The notes beneath the pieces were generated by a model that saw only the letters and a list, made by a program, of their open reading frames with translations, searched no databases and had not been told where the DNA came from. Positions 7,786-61,175 of a stretch of DNA of 64,000 nucleotides are shown here, piece by piece. The stretch is from Candidatus Onthovicinus excrementipullorum (GTDB lineage Bacteria > Bacillota > Clostridia > Oscillospirales > Acutalibacteraceae), in the NCBI GenBank assembly GCA_018712345.1, contig DVHG01000016.1, positions 62,001 through 126,000 on the forward strand, in the 5' to 3' direction. The translations under genes and the position numbers were made by a program. How positions within the stretch are numbered: the first letter of the stretch is position 1; each line of letters opens with the position of its first letter.

Positions 7786-8062
7786 ACCGAGCCCTCCTGA
7801 TCCTTGAAAATTCAAGATCAAAAGGGCGGGGTTCTGTTTCCTCTTGAGAAGATCTCCTGCGGGCTTGATCGGAGTCTGGACCGATTCTCCGCCATCTTCT
7901 GGACGGCGAATACTTCTGCTTCCTGCTTCAAGGGGGCGTGTTGCATCCCCCTGTCCGAACTGTTCCCGGCTTTTATCCTGTACCGGTCAATGTATGGCGG
8001 TTTGAATCACCATCCAGCAGTAGGTGTATCTCCGATCGCACCGCCTGCGGCGTCATCCCCCG

Positions 8063-8210: not shown

Positions 8211-11200
8211 TTACTTTTTCCGTGCGCCATTGGCGGCAAACACGCGCTTGACCGTATTGGAGACATACGGGGCAATATTCAGTGCACCGTCCGTGTAATC
8301 CGGCACCTGGATCTCCGGTGCGAGGACCGGGCTGCCGGCATTGCTCCAGTAGACCGGGTGCTTGCCACAGGCCATACAGCCGGTGTTCTGAATCCCGATT
8401 GCGTGGCACATCGCCAGAGTCACCGCGTGCAGGGATTCATAGCGGAACGAATCCGGACGGAAGGCATTCGCGGCCTCCTGAATGATCTGCCAGGACATCC
8501 GGCCGCACGCTGGTTTCACGGAGGGATGAACCTCATTGAGCCTACGCTCCGCACTGATGAACGTGCCGCCGCACTCGGTCGCCGCGCTCAACGGGAACAG
8601 AACATCCGCCTTCTTGGCGGTGGCGCCCATCATGCAGTCAAACACGGCGGTGAACGCAAAGGAGGCAGCCTCCGGCAGTTCCTCGCCGAAATTGACGAGC
8701 GCCTTGACGCCGGACAGGTCGGTCTCCGCGGCCGGCTTAACGCCGAGAATATCGAGCCCCTGCGCGTTTGCACCGTCCTTGAAGAGGATGATGCCGTTGT
8801 AGGCGCGGCTGATATGGCCGCCGTTTGCAAGGATATCGCCGACCGCGCAAGACGCTTCACGGGAGAGTGTTGCCTCGCGGCAGACAATCATGGCGTTCTT
8901 CGCGTCGCGGTACAGTGCCGCGACCTCCTGCGCCTGCTTATTGTCAACTGTTTCGCCCTTGAGCGCTCCGGCAACTGCGGACAGGAAGGACGTATCGCCG
9001 CACTTGATCTTGAGCGTTGCCCAGTCGTCTGCGCGCGTGTCGCTGTTGCCAATGACAACGAGCTTGGCGCCCTTCTCGACGGCCTGCTTGACCTTCATCA
9101 GGCCGATGTAAGAGGCGCTCATCAGATCGGAGCCAATCAGAAGAATGACGTCCGTGCCGAGCAGTTCGTCGAATGTATTGGTGGAGGCATCCGTGCCGAG
9201 AATCTCAGCAAAAGCGGAGTGCGACTTGGAATACGTCAGGACCTTATCCGTACCGACAACCTTGCGGGCAAATTCGGTAGCAAGGTACGCCTCCTCCATT
9301 GTCAGGCGGTCGGAGAGGGTGAATGCGATCTGAGACGGGTCATATGCTTTCAGCCGGTCTGCCAGCGCCTGAACCGCCTGCGCGTAATCCGCTTTCTCTC
9401 CGCCGACGGAGGGCTCCGTCACGCGGTCGCCGTACTGGAGCGCGCCGAACCCGAAGCGTCCGCCCTTGCAGAGCAGGCCGTTATCGGCGGGAAGGGCACG
9501 CCAGAGGGTATTGCCGACGGAAGTCATGTCGATCTGGCAGCCGACGGAGCAGAACGAACAGGTGGTGCGGGTGACCGTCTCCTGCGCGGGGACATTCTTT
9601 TGCGCCGGCTTGACCTCCATGAGCGCGCCGGTCGGGCACAGCGCCACGCACTGGCCGCAGTTTACGCAGTCCGTCTGGTCGAGCGGCAGGTTGAACTCCG
9701 GTGCGGCCAGCGTGTCAAAGCCGCGGCCGATCAAGCCGAGTGCCGTATTGCCCATGACCTCGTCGCACACGCGGACACACAGTCCGCAGAGAATACACTT
9801 GTCGGGATTGCGGATGATAAACGCATTCTGATCCGGGTGATTGCGGTGGTGCTTCTCACCCTCGAGCCGCTTGGGCTCCACGTGGTACTCGTTTGCCAGA
9901 TGGATCAGCTTGCACTCATAGTAATCGTGGCAGCCGCACTCCAGGCAACGGGAGGCCTCGCGTTTGGCCATCTCCGGTGTGAAGCCCTTGACGACCTCTT
10001 CAAAATTATGCCTGCGCTCCTCCGGTGCAAGGTGCGGCATCGGCTGGCGGGCCACTTTCTCACGGTCCTTCAGATCCTCCGCTGTGACTACACGCTCCAC
10101 GACGAACGGCTTTTCATAGCCGACCGTGGCACCCTTTAAATAGCTGTCGATCACATCGGCGGCCTTCTGCGCCTCACCGATGGCCTCAATCGCGATGCTC
10201 GCGCCGCGGTTGGTCGCGTCGCCGACAGCGAACACACCCTCCATGGAAGTGCGGAACGTCTTCTCATCCGCGCTGATCGTATTCTTCCGGGTGAGTTCCA
10301 GTTCCTCAAAGCCGGCGGGATTCGTCCCCTGACCGATCGCCATGATGACGGTGTCGAGCGCCAGCTCTTCAAACTTACCCTCCACGGGGACGGGGCGGCG
10401 GCGGCCGCTCTCATCCGGCTCTCCGAGCTCCATCACCTGCAGGCGAACACCCGTAACTTTTCCATCCTTGCCGAGGATCTCATCGGGGTTGGTGAGGAAC
10501 TTGAAGGTGACACCCTCTTCCTCGGCCTCCGTGATCTCCACCTCGTCGGCGGGCATCTCGGCACGGGTACGGCGGTAAATGACATAGACCTCCTCCGCGC
10601 CCAGGCGCACCGCCGTGCGGCAGGCGTCCATCGCTGTGTTGCCGCCGCCGCAGATGGCGACCTTTTTGCCGATCTGCGGCTTGTTGCCGAGGATGACGTC
10701 CCGCAGGAAGTCAATTCCGCCGACAACACCGGTGAGATCCTCGCCCTTGACACGCATATTCATGCTGGTCCACGCGCCGATGGCCACGACGACTGCGTCA
10801 TTCTCCGCACGCAGCTGGTCGAGGGTGATATCCGTACCGATGCGGATGTTATTCTTCATTTCAACGCCCAGGGCGGCGATCGAGGCAACCTCCTCATCGA
10901 CGATCTCCTTGGGCAGGCGGTACTGCGGGATGCCATAACGCAGCATGCCGCCCATGTGGGGCATGGCATCATAGACGGTGACCGCGTGGCCCTTGCGGCG
11001 CAGGAAGTTGGCCGCCGTCAGGCCGCCGGGGCCGCCGCCGATCACGGCGACGCGCTTGCCGGTATTCGGCGCACAGGGAGGCATGTACGGATCCTTGGAC
11101 GCGCGGTCCATATCGCCGGCAAAGCTCTTGAGCCATGCGATGGAAATCGGCTCCTCCACCAGCTGGCGGCGGCATGCCTTCTCACACGGGTGCGGGCAGA

Positions 11201-11636
11201 CACGGCCAATCGAGGACGGCAGCGGAATCCGATCCTTAATCAGGCGGATGGCCTCCTTATATTCCCCGTTGGCGATCATACCCACATAGCCCTGGCAGTC
11301 CGTGCCCGCCGGGCAGTTCAGGGAGCAGGGCGCGCGGCAGTCGCCGTCGTGGTCGCTGATGAGCAGCTCCAGCGCGATCTTGCGGGACTCGACCACACGT
11401 TTCGTGTCTGTGTGGACGACCATTCCCTCTTCCGCCTTGGTGGCGCAGGCGCGCAGCAGCTTGCGGTTACCCTCGACCTCCACCAGACAGACGCCGCACG
11501 CGCCGTATGTCTTGACGCGCTCGTCATAGCAGAGGGTCGGGATCTCGATCCCGTGTTCACGGGCCGCCTGCAGAATGGTGTTCCCCTGCTCTGTATAGAT
11601 TTCATATCCATTGATATTCAGATGAATTTTAGCCAT
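8211..11636 (-). CDS. stnC: NuoG-like/GltD-like iron-sulfur flavoprotein, StnC-type subunit of a bifurcating transhydrogenase
   Basis: 1141 residues. Order: a 2Fe-2S ferredoxin domain (C36, C47, C50, C64); NuoG/NfnB-type cysteines (H96, C100, C104, C108, C114 and C147, C151, C155); a GltD-like FAD domain (GGGPGG, 200-205) and NADP(H) Rossmann domain (GGGNTAMD, 330-337, with YRRTRAEMPA); Cys cluster C564-C575; two 4Fe-4S ferredoxin motifs (C614-C624, C657-C667); and a formate-dehydrogenase/NuoG-like 4Fe-4S motif (C693, C696, C700, C723) leading into a molybdopterin-oxidoreductase-like domain to about residue 1050. The Mo-ligand Cys/Sec position appears to be Ser (SKSHSA, about 803-808), so it probably lacks active molybdenum. 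No H-cluster. In Sporomusa Stn this subunit carries the NADPH site. The start has a GGAGGGG site. Confidence 0.85.
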   Translation of the reverse strand: MAKIHLNINGYEIYTEQGNTILQAAREHGIEIPTLCYDERVKTYGACGVCLVEVEGNRKLLRACATKAEEGMVVHTDTKRVVESRKIALELLISDHDGDCRAPCSLNCPAGTDCQGYVGMIANGEYKEAIRLIKDRIPLPSSIGRVCPHPCEKACRRQLVEEPISIAWLKSFAGDMDRASKDPYMPPCAPNTGKRVAVIGGGPGGLTAANFLRRKGHAVTVYDAMPHMGGMLRYGIPQYRLPKEIVDEEVASIAALGVEMKNNIRIGTDITLDQLRAENDAVVVAIGAWTSMNMRVKGEDLTGVVGGIDFLRDVILGNKPQIGKKVAICGGGNTAMDACRTAVRLGAEEVYVIYRRTRAEMPADEVEITEAEEEGVTFKFLTNPDEILGKDGKVTGVRLQVMELGEPDESGRRRPVPVEGKFEELALDTVIMAIGQGTNPAGFEELELTRKNTISADEKTFRTSMEGVFAVGDATNRGASIAIEAIGEAQKAADVIDSYLKGATVGYEKPFVVERVVTAEDLKDREKVARQPMPHLAPEERRHNFEEVVKGFTPEMAKREASRCLECGCHDYYECKLIHLANEYHVEPKRLEGEKHHRNHPDQNAFIIRNPDKCILCGLCVRVCDEVMGNTALGLIGRGFDTLAAPEFNLPLDQTDCVNCGQCVALCPTGALMEVKPAQKNVPAQETVTRTTCSFCSVGCQIDMTSVGNTLWRALPADNGLLCKGGRFGFGALQYGDRVTEPSVGGEKADYAQAVQALADRLKAYDPSQIAFTLSDRLTMEEAYLATEFARKVVGTDKVLTYSKSHSAFAEILGTDASTNTFDELLGTDVILLIGSDLMSASYIGLMKVKQAVEKGAKLVVIGNSDTRADDWATLKIKCGDTSFLSAVAGALKGETVDNKQAQEVAALYRDAKNAMIVCREATLSREASCAVGDILANGGHISRAYNGIILFKDGANAQGLDILGVKPAAETDLSGVKALVNFGEELPEAASFAFTAVFDCMMGATAKKADVLFPLSAATECGGTFISAERRLNEVHPSVKPACGRMSWQIIQEAANAFRPDSFRYESLHAVTLAMCHAIGIQNTGCMACGKHPVYWSNAGSPVLAPEIQVPDYTDGALNIAPYVSNTVKRVFAANGARKK

Positions 11637-31586: not shown

Positions 31587-33632
31587 TTATTCAGCGTCCT
31601 GAGCATCCTCGGCCTGTGCCGCGGGCTCCTCGTCCGCCTCCTCTGCCGGAGCATCCTCCAGCAGCGCACGCATGGAAAGGCTCACGCGCTTTTTGTCAAA
31701 GTCGATATCGGTAATTTTCACCTTAACGACATCGCCGATCTTCACAACATCCTGCGGCTTCTCGACACGGCGGTCGGCAAGCTGGGAGATGTGAATCAGG
31801 CCGTCAATACCCGGGATAATCTGGGCAAATGCGCCAAATGCAGTCAGGCCGACAACCTTTGCCTCAACAACGGAGCCGATCGGGTAATCCCTGCGCAGGA
31901 TCTCCCACGGATTGTCCTCCGCCTTCTTATAGCCGAGGGAAATCTTCCGCTTTTCGGGATCAAGATCCTTGATATAGACCTCGACCGTATCGCCGACATT
32001 GACAACCTCGGACGGATGTTTGATCCGGCTCCAGGAGAGCTCGGAAATGTGGATCATGCCGTCCACGCCGCCGATGTCCACAAACGCACCATAGGAGGTG
32101 AGGGACTTGACCACGCCGGTATATTTCTGACCGATCTCCGCCTGCTCCCAGAATTTATCCTCCAGCTCCTTGCGCTGCTCCTTGAGAACGGCACGCACAG
32201 AACCGACCGCACGCCTGCGGCGCTTGTCGATATCAATGATGTGGAACTGAACCTTCTGCTTGAGCAGATCCTCCAGCGGATCGTTGCGGGAGGCCGTGGC
32301 CAGAGAGGCCGGAATAAATACGCGGGAGCCATTGACATCCGCGAGCACACCGCCGCGGACAACATCCGTGACCGTTCCCTCCACGATGGTATTCTCCTCC
32401 TGGGCCTTGACGATCTCATCCCAGGACTTTGTGGCGTCATAGCGGCGCTTGGAGAGCATCACAGTACCCTCGGCGTCATTCGTCTTCATGATGATCAGGT
32501 CGAGCTCATCGCCGATCTTGACATCCTTGGCGGGGTCAAAGTTCGGGTCGTTTGAAAACTCGTTGATCGGGATGTAGCCGGCGTGCTTCCGGTTGATGTC
32601 TACCTGTATTTCGCTGGGGGAAATGCCCACCACAACGCCGTGCACCTTCTGGTCGCCGTTCATGGACTTGAGCGACTCCTCGAGTGCCTCGGAAAAGCTC
32701 ATCTCGTCGAACGACTTCGCGGCTTCCTCCTTTTCAGTTTCCTGTGCCGCAGCATTCGTTTCAACGGCTGAGTTGGTTTCATTCATAATCTCGGACATGG
32801 TTTCGAGTACCTCCTTTATAGTGCGAGCGGGAGTTGAAGCCCCCGCAGTAACGCCCAGATGACGGCAACCGGAAAAATCGATCCCGCGCAGCTCCGCGGC
32901 CGTCTCGATCAGATCCGTGGGGCAGTTCGGCTCACACACGCTCTTGAGCTTGGCCGTATTGGAACTCTGGCGCCCGCCGATGATGAGCATCCTGTCACAT
33001 CTGCGGGAGAGTTCTATGGCCTCCGCCTGCCTTTCTTCGGTTGCATTACATATTGTATCAAAAACGACGGCATTTGTATATACTAATTTTATTTTTTTCA
33101 CGCATTTTTCCCACTGTGCGGTGCTGAAAGTGGTCTGAGAAACCGCACAGACACTCTTTTGCGCCAATTCCGGGTGTGCGGCAATGATCGCATCAAGCTC
33201 CTCAACGTCCCGGAAGACATAGGTCTCCCCATGGCAGTACCCCTTGATTCCGATGACTTCAGGGTGATTTGGATCCCCAGCGATGAGGACTGTGCTGCCG
33301 TTGACCGTCGCGTCTGAGACAATCTTGTGGATCTTGAGCACAAAGGGACAGGTCGCATTCGTACACCGCAGGGAAAGGCGGTCAATCTCATCCATCACGG
33401 ACTTGGGTACCCCGTGTGTCCGGACAACGAGCACCGCGTCCCGCGGAGCCTGACCGGGCGTGTCCGCGATTATCACGCCGCGCGCCGCAAGATCATCCAC
33501 CACCTGTGGATTGTGAATGATCGGGCCGAGGGTGCAGACTTTTTCACCCTTATTTAATAGAGAATAAACCAAATTGACCGCCCTGTCAACCCCAAAACAG
33601 AATCCTGCCGTCTCAGCGAGCGTAATTTTCAT
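31587..33632 (-). CDS. ispH-rpsA: Fusion of IspH (HMBPP reductase) and ribosomal protein S1-like RNA-binding domains
   Basis: 681 residues. The N-terminal half (about 1-285) is IspH, the last enzyme of the MEP isoprenoid pathway, with 4Fe-4S ligands in [19 protein letters not shown] and [11 protein letters not shown]. After an acidic linker come four S1 RNA-binding repeats (each with a GAFVDIGG- or [12 protein letters not shown] strand and signature HISELSW, HISQLAD). The same fusion is known in many Clostridia. I chose ATG 33632 (GGGAG 7 nt upstream; protein starts [14 protein letters not shown]), not 33710. It overlaps the end of cmk-plsC by 20 nt. Confidence 0.95.
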
Positions 33633-34998
33633 CAATTTTCTCCCACATCTCCTCAATCCGGCCCATGATCTTCCGGGTGGCACTGCGCAGCTCACTCGCC
33701 TTTTTCCCATCCGTCAGGCCCAGTTCCTCATTGCGGATGACTTTGCCGAATTCCACGACCACATGCGTGCGGAACGCGCGCACCGGCTTGCCGCCGGACC
33801 AGATCGCCACCGGAACGATATCCGCCCCTGTGGCGGCCGCGATCAGTGCAATCCCGGACTTTGCCTTACCCGGCCGATAGTCCTTGGAGCGCGTCCCCTC
33901 CGGAAAGATGCCAAGCACCTTTTCACGCTCCAGCAGGCCCAGGGCGTATTCAAACGCGCGCCGGTCCCCCGAGCCGCGGCTGACCGGGAAGGCGTTGAGT
34001 CCGGTGACGACCGCCTTGACAAACCAGTTGCGGAAGAGTTCCTCCTTGGCCATGGCGTGGATCACCCGCACCATCGCGGAGCCGACAAAGACCGGATCCC
34101 ATCCGCTGATGTGGTTGGCCGCGATGATAAGCTTCCCCTTTTTGGGGACATTCTGCCTGCCGATATAGGTAATGCGGTACAGCAGCTTGCATGTGAGCCA
34201 CGTAAAGGGCATAGCGATGATATAAAACGCGTGCGTGGTAAATTTTTTAAAATTATATTTGACTTTTGTATGCGGGGCCCGCTCTTTTTTTTCCGGCCGC
34301 GGTGCCGGCTCAGCCGGAGCCGCCTGCTCCAGACGCCCACGGATGACGGAGGCGACGAGCGCGACAGACTCCTCAAAGTCCTTGCCGGTGGTATCCACTA
34401 AAACGGCATCCTCCGCCTGCTTCAGCGGGGCAGCCGCACGGTGTGAGTCGTTGTAATCGCGCTGCTTCTGATCGGCGAGGACCTCCTCGAATGTCACCTG
34501 CTCTCCCCGGGCTTCCAGCTCCGCAAAGCGCCGCCGGGCCCGCTCCTCCGGAGAAGCGGTGAGAAAGATCTTGACATCGGCGTTTGGCAGGACGACCGTG
34601 GCGATATCGCGGCCATCCATGATGCAGCTGTTTTTTGAGGCGATATCACGCTGAAGGTCGAGCAGGAACGCCCGGACAGCCGGCAGTGCGGAGACGGCGG
34701 AGGCCGCCATGGATACCTCGGGCGTGCGGATCAGCCCGGAGACATCCTCCCCGTTGAGCAGGACGCGCTGCTCCCCCTCCCGGAAGGCGAGTTCCACCCG
34801 GATATCGGAGAGCATTTTTCCCACGGCTTCCTGGTCCTGCGCATCCACCTGACCCCGCAGGGAGTAAAGGCCGATGGCGCGGTAGAGCGCGCCGGTATCA
34901 ATGTAGATATATCCCGCCTGCTTTGCCACCGCGCGCGCGATGGTGCTCTTGCCCGCACCGGACGGCCCGTCAATCGCGATGTTGATTATTTTACTCAT
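33613..34998 (-). CDS. cmk-plsC: Fusion of cytidylate kinase and PlsC-type 1-acylglycerol-3-phosphate acyltransferase
   Basis: 461 residues. Residues 1-225 are cytidylate kinase: P-loop GPSGAGKST, IDTGALYRA, DGRDIATVV. It phosphorylates CMP and dCMP. After a Pro/Ala/Glu-rich linker (about 226-245), residues 255-461 are PlsC: a membrane-associating segment, the catalytic ANHISGWD (HX4D) and FPEGTRS, which bind glycerol-phosphate. PlsC makes phosphatidic acid. The combination is recurrent in Clostridia next to ispH-rpsA. It starts 4 nt inside the upstream flavoprotein gene. Confidence 0.94.
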   Translation of the reverse strand: MSKIINIAIDGPSGAGKSTIARAVAKQAGYIYIDTGALYRAIGLYSLRGQVDAQDQEAVGKMLSDIRVELAFREGEQRVLLNGEDVSGLIRTPEVSMAASAVSALPAVRAFLLDLQRDIASKNSCIMDGRDIATVVLPNADVKIFLTASPEERARRRFAELEARGEQVTFEEVLADQKQRDYNDSHRAAAPLKQAEDAVLVDTTGKDFEESVALVASVIRGRLEQAAPAEPAPRPEKKERAPHTKVKYNFKKFTTHAFYIIAMPFTWLTCKLLYRITYIGRQNVPKKGKLIIAANHISGWDPVFVGSAMVRVIHAMAKEELFRNWFVKAVVTGLNAFPVSRGSGDRRAFEYALGLLEREKVLGIFPEGTRSKDYRPGKAKSGIALIAAATGADIVPVAIWSGGKPVRAFRTHVVVEFGKVIRNEELGLTDGKKASELRSATRKIMGRIEEMWEKIDENYAR

Positions 34999-56987: not shown

Positions 56988-58070
56988 ATGCCGATCTGGA
57001 ACCCGTGGCATGGGTGCCGTAAAATATCGCCGGGATGTCAAAACTGCTATGTCTACCGCAGGGACAGTCAATTTGGCAAGGACAGCTCCACCGTGGCCCG
57101 TACGAGTGCATTTGATCTGCCCGTGAAAAGGGACAGGCAGGGTGATTATAAGCTCCAAACCCAGGAGATGGTGTACACCTGTATGACCTCCGACTTCTTC
57201 ATTGAGGAGGCAGACGGCTGGCGCGCTGAGGCCTGGGCCATGATCCGGGCACGGCCGGACCTGCACTTTACCATTATCACCAAGCGGATTCACCGCTTCC
57301 GGGTCATGCTCCCGGAGGACTGGGATGCAGGATATGAAAATGTGACGATCCTGTGCACCTGTGAGGATCAGCAGCGTGCGGACGACCGTCTGCCGCTCTT
57401 TCTGGAATTGCCGATCCGGCACCGGGAGATCATCGCAGAGCCCCTGCTGGGGAAAATCAATTTTGATCCTTACCTCTCCTCCGGTAAAATAGCGGCTGTG
57501 ACCTGCGGCGGGGAGTCAGGCGACAACGCCCGAACATGCGACTACGATTGGATTCTTGAAATCCGGCAGCAGTGTGTGGCACACGGTGTGCGCTTTCACT
57601 TTAAGCAGACGGGCGCAAACTTCCGCAAAAATGGAAAGTGTTACCACATTGAGCGGAAGTTTCAGCTGCCTCAGGCCAGGCGCGCCGGTATTGACTATGA
57701 CCCGGCAGAGACGTTTGACAGTTTATTTGACCGTCTGGCACAGTCCAAGTTCCGCAGCCGCTTCCGCCTGACGGAAAAGGATCTGCAATACATCCGGGAA
57801 AAGGGCGTAGACACGGTTCGGAACCATGCAGAGGACTTCATCCGCCGGCGTCTGGCACCGGCTGTGATTGAAAATGACGGCAAGCAGACACCGATGCGCG
57901 GCCACCCCGTATTTACTGCACAGCACGCCACCGCTACCTGCTGCAGGGGATGCCTGTCCAAATGGCACGGCATCCCGCCGGGGCGGGAACTGACCGCACG
58001 GGAACAGCAGTACGCGGTGTCCGTCATCATGGAGTGGATTCGGCGCCAGTGTGCTCTGCCAAATCGTTAA
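56988..58070 (+). CDS. DUF5131 (phage Gp37/Gp68-like) fused to DUF4186
   Basis: 360 residues. Residues 1 to about 240 are a DUF5131 domain: IWNPWHGCRKISPGCQNCYVY (positions 3-23) with its CxxC-type cysteines, FFIEEADGWRAEAW, CGGESGDNARTCDYDW, FHFKQTGA. The C-terminal part (about 290-350) is DUF4186: MRGHPVFTAQHATATCCRGCLSKWHGIPPGRELT (positions 293-326). The first family is known from phages and may be radical-SAM-like; neither has a proven function. Fusion is uncommon to my knowledge. A decayed copy of the DUF4186 end lies at 61186-61326. Confidence 0.82.
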   Translation: MPIWNPWHGCRKISPGCQNCYVYRRDSQFGKDSSTVARTSAFDLPVKRDRQGDYKLQTQEMVYTCMTSDFFIEEADGWRAEAWAMIRARPDLHFTIITKRIHRFRVMLPEDWDAGYENVTILCTCEDQQRADDRLPLFLELPIRHREIIAEPLLGKINFDPYLSSGKIAAVTCGGESGDNARTCDYDWILEIRQQCVAHGVRFHFKQTGANFRKNGKCYHIERKFQLPQARRAGIDYDPAETFDSLFDRLAQSKFRSRFRLTEKDLQYIREKGVDTVRNHAEDFIRRRLAPAVIENDGKQTPMRGHPVFTAQHATATCCRGCLSKWHGIPPGRELTAREQQYAVSVIMEWIRRQCALPNR

Positions 58071-58272: not shown

Positions 58273-59547
58273 ATGAACAAAGCAATCGAACTGTTTGGCC
58301 GGCATATTTATCACCTTACGCCAAACAAGCCGCTAAGGGTTAGAAAAGAGCTCTCCTTTGTATATAATGCCTCAGGCCTGATGTGCAAATACTTCCCGTC
58401 AAAAAAGCTGCTGCCGTCCAGACAGTTTATGCAATGGGCTGCCGCCGACTCGGCTATTCGGCCCCTGAAAGACGGAAACGGCTCCGCCATCGTCAGCCTG
58501 TATACACCCTGCGAGATCCTGCACGCAATGGGGATCAAGCTGATGTTCCCGGAGGCTCTTGCATGTTATCTGGCGGCGGCCGGAAGCGAGCGGATATTTA
58601 TTGAAACCGCAGAGAATAACGGCCTGCCCAAAACCATGTGTTCCTATCATAAGAGCTTTATCGGTATGGTTGAATCCGGTGTTTTGCCAAAGCCCGATTT
58701 TATTATAAACACTACGCTTGCGTGTGATGCAAACCACTTATCCTTCAGGCGTGCAGCGGAATACTACCACGTTCCACAGTTCATCATCGACGTCCCCAGC
58801 GCTCACAGCCCGTCAAACACAGAATATGTTGCACGGCAATTGAGGGACGCCGTACATTTTATTGAGACAAACAGCACCTTCCGCCTGGATCCAAAAAAAT
58901 TGGAGGACTCGGTCAATCGAAGCAAACGGACTTTACAGAACTTCAGGGACGTTATTCCCGTACGGGCGTCACGCTCCATTTCAGATGAGATGACCTCACA
59001 GATCCTGACTCTTTTTGCAACTCATGTGATGCTCGGCACGGAAAATGCCGAAAAATACAGTTCTGATTTTCTTGCAGAACTCCGCCAATGTGAAGAATGT
59101 AAAAAGGGCGTCAGGCTTCTGTGGGTTCATACGCTCCCCTACTGGCAGGACGCACTGCGCGATTTAATCAATTTTACAGACAGGTGCGAAATCGTTGCCT
59201 GTGATATGTCCCTTGATGCCATGCATGTAAATCTGGAAGAAACTGATCCGTACCGGTTCATGGCCGAACGACTTTTAAAAAACACTGCTAACGGCCCTTG
59301 TGAAAACAGAATCAGCGCTGTGTGCGAGCTTGCCGAAAAGCTGGATGCAGATGGTGTGATCTGGTATTGCCACTGGGGATGCAAACAAACGGCCGGGGCA
59401 TCTGCGCAGGCCAAAGAATTTTTGGAGAAAAAAGGCTTCCCCACTCTAATACTGGACGGCGACGGCTGCGATTCCAACAACGTAAACGACGGTCAGACGA
59501 TCACCAGAACAGAAGCATTTTTAGAACTGCTGGAGAATAAAAAATGA
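58273..59547 (+). CDS. 2-hydroxyacyl-CoA dehydratase / HgdB-like (DCCP-type) subunit
   Basis: 424 residues of the HGD-D family. Likely cluster ligands are C123 in MCSYHKS, C151 in LACDANHLS and C370 in YCHWGCKQ. Further Cys lie at C38, C80, C98, C273 and C276. The fold pairs two Rossmann-like halves around an iron-sulfur cluster, seen in dehydratases, benzoyl-CoA reductase and double-cubane-cluster proteins. It overlaps the fused activator gene by 4 nt. The second gene supplies another HGD-D-like domain and an activating ATPase, so this is an alpha/beta pair plus activator. Substrate unknown. The base composition is AT-richer than the neighbours. Confidence 0.85.
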   Translation: MNKAIELFGRHIYHLTPNKPLRVRKELSFVYNASGLMCKYFPSKKLLPSRQFMQWAAADSAIRPLKDGNGSAIVSLYTPCEILHAMGIKLMFPEALACYLAAAGSERIFIETAENNGLPKTMCSYHKSFIGMVESGVLPKPDFIINTTLACDANHLSFRRAAEYYHVPQFIIDVPSAHSPSNTEYVARQLRDAVHFIETNSTFRLDPKKLEDSVNRSKRTLQNFRDVIPVRASRSISDEMTSQILTLFATHVMLGTENAEKYSSDFLAELRQCEECKKGVRLLWVHTLPYWQDALRDLINFTDRCEIVACDMSLDAMHVNLEETDPYRFMAERLLKNTANGPCENRISAVCELAEKLDADGVIWYCHWGCKQTAGASAQAKEFLEKKGFPTLILDGDGCDSNNVNDGQTITRTEAFLELLENKK

Positions 59548-61175
59548 TTGCTTATACCTGTAAATACGCACCCCTGGAGCTGCTGCGCGTATTTGATAAC
59601 GACCATTTAATCAACAATAACGCAGATCAGTTTGAATACGCACAGTCAGTCATGCATCCGAATATGTGCAGCCATATCAAGGCGGTTTTGGAAGACATCC
59701 ATAAAAACAAGTATGACAGAATTTTCTTAATCAACTGCTGCGACAGCACCAGAAGACTGAGCGATGTTTTAAAAAGAGAAAGGCTTGCCTATCACAAAAT
59801 GCTTGATTTGCCTGTGGAAACAGGCTCATGCGCGGCAATGCGATTAAAAAGCGATCTGCTGGAAGTGATACAGGAACTGGAAGCGCTCTATCACAAGCCG
59901 TTTGACAAAGCCGCATTTTTGCGCTGCTTTCCGGATGAGCCGCCCTCATATCCGGCCGGCCCCTTCGTTTTGCTTTTGGGTGCCAGAAGCAATACAGCTC
60001 TGGTAAACATAGTCCAGTCCTGTTTTGACATTCCCGTTATTGACGCCACATGCACCAATAATAGGACTATTACGCGGGGCACCATGAACACGGGCGATTC
60101 CATTGACGAATTGATGGAAAAATACGCATTCGCGCTTTTAAACCAGTCCCCCTGCATGAGGATGGCGGATGTTCAGTCCCGAAAAAAATTGCTCAACCAT
60201 GAAAACTGTGCAGGCATTATTTATCACACCATCCAGTTCTGCGATTATTACGATTACGAATATTCCCAAATTAAATCAATTGGAATCCCCCTACTCAAGA
60301 TCGAGACAGACTTCACTGCCCAGTCAAGCGGCCAGATCCTGACAAGGATAGAGGGCTTTGCCGAGGCATTAAAAAGAAAGAAGGAACACGCATTGGCTGC
60401 TGGTAAAAGCGGAAAATATTATGCCGGGATCGACAGCGGATCCACTTCAACAGAGCTGGTCATTCTGGATGAGAATAAAAACATCATCCGCACCGTGATG
60501 GTCAGGACCGGGGCGAACGCAGGAGCAGGCGCCGAAAAGGCGCTTGCACAGTCCGGGATCGCCAAATCTGACATCCGTGCCGTGACAGCGACGGGTTACG
60601 GCCGCAGAAACATTGCCTTTGCCGATTCTTCCGTGACGGAAATCACCTGTCACGCCAAGGGGGCCAAGCACCTTTTTCCGCAGGCGGAGGCCATTATCGA
60701 TATCGGCGGTCAGGACAGCAAGGTGATTACCCTTGATGCCGACGGAAATGTAAGCAATTTTGTCATGAATGACAAGTGCGCCGCAGGCACGGGACGGTTC
60801 CTGGAAAACATGGCAAAAGTGCTTGAAATCGACATGGATACCATGGCGAACAGCGGCCTGAAATACAAAAACGACCTGACCATATCCAGCATGTGCACCG
60901 TCTTTGCGGAATCTGAAGTCGTATCCCTGATTGCAGAAAATCACCCCATTGCCGATATCATCCACGGCCTTAACAAAAGTGTTGCCCAAAAGACAAAAGC
61001 CCTCGCACGCAGCGCCGCCAAATCGGATAAAATTGTGATGACCGGCGGTGTGGCGAATAACAGGGGTGTTGTGACCGAACTGGAAAAGCAACTGAATACC
61101 AGGCTGCTTATTCCCGAAAAACCAGAATTCTGCGGCGCGCTGGGTGCCGCACTCATTGCACTGGAAGGGAAATAA
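59544..61175 (+). CDS. HGD-D-like dehydratase subunit fused to its ASKHA activator ATPase
   Basis: 543 residues. Residues 1-285 are a shortened HGD-D-family domain with ligands C42 (MCSHIK), C65/C66 (NCCDSTRR) and C233 (QFCDYYDYEY). A Lys/Ala-rich linker leads to an activator domain (about 291-543): actin-like phosphate loops YYAGIDSGSTSTEL and DIGGQDSKVI, and the bridging-cluster cysteines C412 (NDKCAAGTG) and C451 (SSMCTVF). Activators normally are separate homodimers (HgdC) that inject an electron at the cost of ATP. A fusion would hold activator and subunit in 1:1 contact. Overlaps the first gene by 4 nt. Confidence 0.87.
   Translation: MIAYTCKYAPLELLRVFDNDHLINNNADQFEYAQSVMHPNMCSHIKAVLEDIHKNKYDRIFLINCCDSTRRLSDVLKRERLAYHKMLDLPVETGSCAAMRLKSDLLEVIQELEALYHKPFDKAAFLRCFPDEPPSYPAGPFVLLLGARSNTALVNIVQSCFDIPVIDATCTNNRTITRGTMNTGDSIDELMEKYAFALLNQSPCMRMADVQSRKKLLNHENCAGIIYHTIQFCDYYDYEYSQIKSIGIPLLKIETDFTAQSSGQILTRIEGFAEALKRKKEHALAAGKSGKYYAGIDSGSTSTELVILDENKNIIRTVMVRTGANAGAGAEKALAQSGIAKSDIRAVTATGYGRRNIAFADSSVTEITCHAKGAKHLFPQAEAIIDIGGQDSKVITLDADGNVSNFVMNDKCAAGTGRFLENMAKVLEIDMDTMANSGLKYKNDLTISSMCTVFAESEVVSLIAENHPIADIIHGLNKSVAQKTKALARSAAKSDKIVMTGGVANNRGVVTELEKQLNTRLLIPEKPEFCGALGAALIALEGK

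Follow-up and report, generated by a model that had tools for sequence, protein, structure and literature searches.

A two-gene unit of anaerobes, many from guts, in which a predicted double-cubane subunit and its ATP-driven activase form one polypeptide

What kind of enzyme carries a putative ATP-driven electron pump within one of its own subunits? To our knowledge, low-potential ATP-driven reductions in biology depend on very few machines, and the question is raised here by two adjacent genes in a 64,000-nucleotide stretch of DNA from Candidatus Onthovicinus excrementipullorum (the window), both on the + strand, as are all features described within them. The first gene, orf1 (58273..59547), encodes a catalytic-type HGD-D subunit (alpha) of 424 aa with a predicted open-site [4Fe-4S] cluster. 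The second, orf2 (59544..61175), overlaps it by 4 bases and encodes a 543-aa protein in which a beta-type HGD-D subunit is fused to an activase. Judging from sequence comparisons, we consider it reasonably probable that the pair is an ATP-driven reductase, composed of an alpha subunit with an open-site [4Fe-4S] cluster and a six-cysteine beta subunit fused to its activase.

The domain layout is clear. Pfam matches above cut-off define orf1 as a single HGD-D domain (217.5 bits) and divide orf2 into an HGD-D part (112.1 bits, the last stretch ending at residue 276) and a BcrAD_BadFG activase (192 bits, residues 295-539). The HGD-D half of orf2 (residues 1-278, 59544..60377) holds a predicted [8Fe-9S] double-cubane site, and the activase domain (residues 291-543, 60414..61172) holds the ATPase motifs and the pair C412 and C451, predicted to bind an inter-protomer [4Fe-4S] cluster. 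Between them lies a linker (residues 279-290, 60378..60413) of lowest confidence in the AlphaFold 2 model, with a mean predicted local distance difference test (pLDDT) score of 90.8 overall and 64 in the block at residues 281-290. No HGD-D match lies outside these two genes in the genome (98% complete), whose sole activase above cut-off is the fused one, with one weak match below. A preliminary description of this DNA had placed both genes correctly; the residues it had listed, C123, C151 and C370 in orf1 and GIDSGSTSTE, DIGGQDSK, C412 and C451 in orf2, are present, and its view of a dehydratase-family relative with a fused activator is borne out by scores above cut-off in Pfam and for TIGR00241.

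Evidence for the double cubane comes from the cysteines of orf2. Our comparisons with BzdN and BzdO, of the class I benzoyl-CoA reductase (BCR) of BZD type, and with the dehydratase subunits HadB and HadC are based on the residues shown in alignments to PDB structures. Profile comparison with solved structures made all six orf2 cysteines, C6, C42, C66, C170, C204 and C233, coincide with those of a double-cubane cluster protein (DCCP; chain 6eno), and placed C6, C42, C66, C170 and C233 on BzdN C36, C73, C100, C263 and C327. The sections of PMC11971306 cited here name C36, C73, C100, C263, C293 and C327 as the [8Fe-9S] ligands of BzdN, and take the double cubane as an electron storage site. In a separate alignment of 38 fused rows (one locus, L080, dropped), all six were found in YjiM and in a DCCP relative (L113), whereas a HadC-like protein (L112) lacked the first and fourth. 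These missing ligands agree with the view, expressed in part of PMC11971306, that the beta cluster of 2-hydroxyacyl-CoA dehydratases (HADs) is a remnant of a double cubane. The six cysteines, and likewise C65, are invariant in 39/39 diverse relatives and occur in 119 or 120 of the 120 close homologues listed, the misses being a gap. The preliminary description had recognized C42, C65/C66 and C233 and overlooked C6, C170 and C204, which are equally invariant.

The catalytic features lie in orf1. The predicted cluster ligands C123 (58639..58641), C151 (58723..58725) and C370, the latter in a CHWGC motif (59380..59382), correspond to HadB C84, C117 and C346, and the predicted catalytic Glu, E94 (58552..58554), aligns with HadB E55; we take these HadB residues to be ligands and catalytic Glu, respectively. 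All three cysteines are kept in 122/122 close and 47/47 diverse relatives, and E94 in 47/47 diverse relatives. Their BzdO counterparts C95, C128 and C380 are given as ligands, and E65 as the Glu, in the part of PMC11971306 used here. To equate C151 with BzdO C128, the profile alignment has to be moved by one residue, since as it stands it sets C151 on C129, and E94 was placed via HadB, the BzdO stretch with E65 being outside the aligned part.

Around these residues the active site appears to have been rebuilt. When orf1 relatives were compared with two HadB-like proteins (L116) in a 47-row alignment, Gln was replaced by C80, Ser by I/L/V/M76, Ala by H126, another Ala by H286, and L-N-R by C366-H-W. 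C80, in a PCE motif (58510..58512; Gln in HadB; 122/122 close and 46/47 diverse relatives), and C366, in CHWGC (59368..59370; 121/122 and 46/47), are family-specific, nearly invariant cysteines that correspond to no known cluster ligand. The conserved replacement residues would line the substrate site, and those near the alpha cluster (C80, H126, N154, H286 and C366-H-W) suggest a substrate other than benzoyl-CoA or a Stickland 2-hydroxyacyl-CoA. Separately, we observed that the nearly invariant C65 of orf2 (59736-59738) also matches no known cluster ligand; C65, C80 and C366 might make up an extra site.

The same alignments bear on a second explanation, in which the pair is a 2-hydroxyacyl-CoA dehydratase for an unusual substrate, a single ATP-activated electron producing a ketyl radical and being recycled, and the fusion is a mere convenience. 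With known dehydratases (HadBC with HadI; HgdAB with HgdC) the pair shares the alpha ligands, the catalytic Glu and an activase domain whose identity to HadI is about 43%. However, the activase of those enzymes is a separate homodimer, their substrate-site residues differ from those of orf1, and their HadC-type beta subunit lacks ligands 1 and 4, whereas orf2, with the extra C6 and C170, holds all six. The HadB Ser37 column is hydrophobic in 47/47 orf1 relatives, and the NRSC of HadB-like proteins is replaced by HWGC, in which H is kept in 46/47 and both W and the ligand C in 47/47. Scores also fall far under the dehydratase cut-offs (HadB 68.2 of 750 bits, HadC 27.2 of 700), which are strict: a HadB/HadC-type pair in the genome G031 does not reach them either (501 of 750 and 475.5 of 700). 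Finally, neither a CoA-transferase nor a 2-hydroxyacid dehydrogenase was present among the 25 of 62 Pfam families listed for 56 close neighbours. We therefore regard this explanation as unlikely. The classical Stickland dehydratase was tried as a candidate in its own right and was disfavoured by the alignment of orf1 and orf2 with HadB-like and HadC-like proteins.

For the activase domain, TIGR00241 (254.3 bits, cut-off 125.4) was the sole NCBIfam model, among those matched, to score above cut-off; the GxDxGST and DIGGQDxK motifs are present, the key activase residues are invariant in diverse relatives, and C412 and C451 are each kept in 39/39. Because known activators hold their [4Fe-4S] cluster between two protomers, according to the portion of PMC11574389 cited here, two fused chains would have to come together for the pump to work, and by analogy the fused activase would dimerize around a bridging [4Fe-4S]. 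The 'fixed 1:1 coupling' proposed earlier thus holds only for domain stoichiometry.

In the mechanism that we propose for the reductase, two fused chains would pair via their activase domains round one [4Fe-4S], bound by C412 and C451 of each, giving an alpha2(beta-activase)2 assembly. Reduced ferredoxin or flavodoxin would load the activase cluster, and ATP hydrolysis would drive single electrons, one after another, into the beta [8Fe-9S], which could store two or more. From there the electrons would reach the cluster of alpha, and the water ligand of this cluster, together with E94, would hand electrons and protons to the substrate. H126 or H286 could substitute for His131, the proton-shuttle residue of BzdO. 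We infer a net two-electron reduction; this would need fresh pumped electrons at each turnover, a demand that would account for the double cubane as well as for the attached pump. In the contrast drawn in sections of PMC11971306, class I BCRs use ATP for each electron and HADs recycle one electron, and a storing double cubane with a covalent pump fits the BCR side.

Comparison with BZD-type BCR (BzdNO with BzdPQ) supports this assignment. Both systems have an ATP-driven activase of like fold and an asymmetric pair: the three cysteines and Glu of the BCR catalytic subunit are found in orf1 as C123, C151, C370 and E94, and the six-ligand second subunit is represented by orf2, six columns of which match DCCP and five BzdN. 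On the other hand, the activase here is fused and of one kind, whereas BZD has a P/Q heterodimer; the orf2 HGD-D half is shorter (278 versus about 375 residues); BzdO Ser44 and, by the inferred register, His131 are not kept in orf1; and the BCR equivalogs score under cut-off (bzdO 57 of 448.6 bits, bzdN 21.8 of 453.8). We also count as support for the reductase that the fold of orf1 is nearest HadB and BzdO, followed by HadC and then DCCP, and that G031 encodes the fused pair and, on another contig, the HadB/HadC-type set with its own activase.

Several observations weigh against the reductase. C204 of orf2 sits a few residues away from BzdN C293 in the profile comparison. The N-terminal profile match that places C6, C42 and C66 is weak (DCCP 19.8 bits; BzdN 8.2 bits, i-Evalue 12); the C-terminal matches to both are strong, and the N-terminal placement is backed by the fold alignment and by the separate sequence alignment. 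In orf1 the position of BzdO Ser44 is hydrophobic, and that of His131 is taken by N154 in 47/47 relatives, at a place inferred across the one-residue shift. HadB and BzdO tie as the nearest fold of orf1, and the activase resembles the activators of dehydratases about as closely as those of BCR. The electron path from activase to double cubane to alpha cluster is itself predicted by analogy. Lastly, the best NCBIfam model for both HGD-D parts is double_cubane (NF040772), with 75.5 and 69.3 bits far under a cut-off of 350 that YjiM passes with 531.

This last result, although under cut-off, also speaks for a third explanation, that of a DCCP-like small-molecule reductase working at the double cubane on substrates of the acetylene, azide or hydrazine type, with orf1 as a structural or accessory subunit. 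It is joined by the six-cysteine site common to orf2 and DCCP, the lack of pathway neighbours and the sporadic occurrence of the unit (7/291 genomes of its class). Like DCCP and DCCP-R (YjiM and YjiL, whose genes are adjacent in E. coli K-12), the pair combines a six-cysteine site with an activase partner. However, DCCP has a separate activase and is a homodimer in which each subunit holds a double cubane, as described in part of PMC11971306, whereas here the predicted double-cubane subunit itself carries the activase and an extra three-cysteine, catalytic-type subunit is present. The latter, orf1, is strongly conserved in its ligands and Glu and has S/N where the first double-cubane cysteine would be (column 75, 47 rows). 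We consider this explanation improbable. As for the homodimeric DCCP proper, orf1 was rejected as a member for the missing first cysteine and the score below the NF040772 cut-off. Of the DCCP-like reductase of the preliminary description, the double-cubane link is supported by the six ligand cysteines, and a DCCP-like architecture is not supported, the six being confined to orf2.

Overall, the cluster set is predicted from these residues to be of class I BCR type, not that of a dehydratase or of a homodimeric DCCP. Every part belongs to a known family, and the combination (an apparently BCR-like asymmetric cysteine set, a single fused activase and active-site residues of its own) matches none of BCR, HAD or DCCP.

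Is the fusion real, and how widespread is it? When one genome of each species was scanned, an orf1 relative was encoded at 406 places, of which the best 80 loci were kept. In 80/80 kept loci an HGD-D/activase region lies downstream of orf1 on the same strand, with spacing from overlap to 343 bases; the fusion is one uninterrupted frame in 78/80 (a few run off the contig end), the region being broken by frame in L028 and L101. At least 120 orf2 homologues carry both Pfam domains, with no exception among those listed. In the class of the window, orf1 was matched at E <= 1e-60 in 7/291 sampled genomes, its own included, and the fused gene adjoins orf1 in the six others and in the relatives G009 and G031, the copy in G316 being damaged. 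An assembly artefact, a concern raised at the outset, is ruled out by the 80/80 kept loci, the 8/8 genomes (one damaged) and the two-domain homologues. No match was found in the one same-genus genome searched, and the full-length fused protein was present in 2/40 relatives. Among the open-access papers listed, the literature search showed none describing a fused HGD-D/activase pair, and no homologue with an assigned dehydratase substrate was found, the few source names all being generic.

The hosts of the kept loci are mostly Bacillota, many from gut samples, and include the named strains Flavonifractor plautii ATCC 29863 (L044) and Hornefia butyriciproducens WCA-MUC-591-APC-3H (L048). In the activase tree, three Spirochaetota and one Chloroflexota are nested among Bacillota, which indicates that the two-gene unit probably moved between phyla. 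That tree, of 38 fused and 5 separate domains (L080 again dropped), placed the separate ones on long branches at an unresolved base, a topology compatible with a single fusion event. Distances of orf1 and of the orf2 halves are correlated over 39 loci (r 0.67 and 0.74, reached by 0/2000 permutations), which shows joint descent, a pattern that linkage alone would also produce. Carriage by plasmids or phages was rejected: five plasmid records had matches, all under 25% identity, and no phage match was found for the unit.

Two other architectures belong to the same enzyme world. Large activase-activase-DUF2229 proteins (e.g., L018) also fuse an activase to other domains, and differ in having two activase stretches and PF09989, with no PF06050 match in the 1079 residues covered. 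We also observed in G021 (L117, 620-3983) a related set of three unfused genes, possibly for another uncharacterised reductase. One, whose start lies beyond the locus, encodes a beta-type HGD-D protein bearing double-cubane-like cysteines, another an alpha-like HGD-D protein of 520 aa, and the third an activase of its own.

The neighbourhood of the pair offers no pathway. When neighbouring open reading frames (ORFs) of at least 90 aa were clustered at 30% identity or higher across the 80 loci, none of the 25 clusters listed, 10 representatives of which were scanned, occurred in more than 13/80. Same-strand neighbours within 200 bases occur upstream in 29/80 and downstream in 27/80 loci (ORFs of 1200 aa or more excluded). 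These 56 close neighbours belong to 62 Pfam families, the commonest of the 25 listed being PF03283 (6/56); one iron-containing alcohol dehydrogenase is among them. An operon partner or pathway was thus rejected for want of a recurring metabolic gene over the 80 loci, in agreement with the absence of CoA-transferase or dehydrogenase neighbours in the preliminary description. The commonest cluster (13/80) has as representative a phage-integrase-family recombinase; this gene (L057:10124-11023 and 12 further loci; one representative scanned) is at most 1.5 kb away from the pair in 11 of the 13. In 6/80 loci (L026:5586-6026 and five more), orf1 is preceded at a distance of about 200-310 bases by a divergent gene of the Rrf2 regulator family, of which one representative was scanned; the window itself has none upstream of orf1. 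Riboswitch control was rejected, no Rfam match near the genes exceeding the gathering score. Immediately upstream of the pair in the window, DUF5131 and DUF4186 are joined in one protein (56988-58070, +).

The lack of recurring neighbours also suits a fourth explanation, in which the pair has no substrate itself and serves to deliver electrons to some other protein or to reactivate it. ATP-dependent activators of corrinoid proteins, which would provide the precedent, are described in the part of PMC6739815 cited here. Nevertheless, the neighbour families listed include no recurrent gene for a corrinoid protein or another client, and the conserved Glu of orf1, together with its cluster site of three ligands, indicates a substrate site; we judge this explanation very improbable, the least probable of those considered.

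Elsewhere, the window encodes LytB (IspH) fused to S1 RNA-binding domains (31587-33710, -), cytidylate kinase fused to an acyltransferase domain (33613-34998, -), and a 1141-aa protein (8211-11636, -) with 2Fe-2S, Fer4_20, Pyr_redox_2 and molybdopterin oxidoreductase domains, perhaps tied to low-potential electron supply. A bacterial small-subunit rRNA match (7878-8024, -; 63.3 bits, model 925-1374) is apparently a fragment.

What, then, does the unit mean for the family? With a pump and its presumed acceptor cluster in one polypeptide, within a fixed two-gene unit, it offers a compact test of double-cubane electron storage and could lead to a new substrate used by gut anaerobes. Sections of PMC11971306 describe the biological function of DCCP as unknown and the restriction to CoA esters as the present limit of enzymatic Birch reduction. 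Tentatively, and with less confidence than we place in the reductase itself, we suggest that the pair may represent a third functional class of BCR I/HAD radical enzymes: an ATP-driven alpha2(beta-activase)2 reductase of gut anaerobes, self-contained and permanently coupled, whose nitrogenase-like pump would be hard-wired to a double cubane and whose rebuilt alpha site (C80, C366-His-Trp and H286) would perform Birch-type chemistry on a substrate unused by known members, possibly no CoA ester. If true, such a CoA-independent member would lift the CoA-ester limit on enzymatic Birch reduction.

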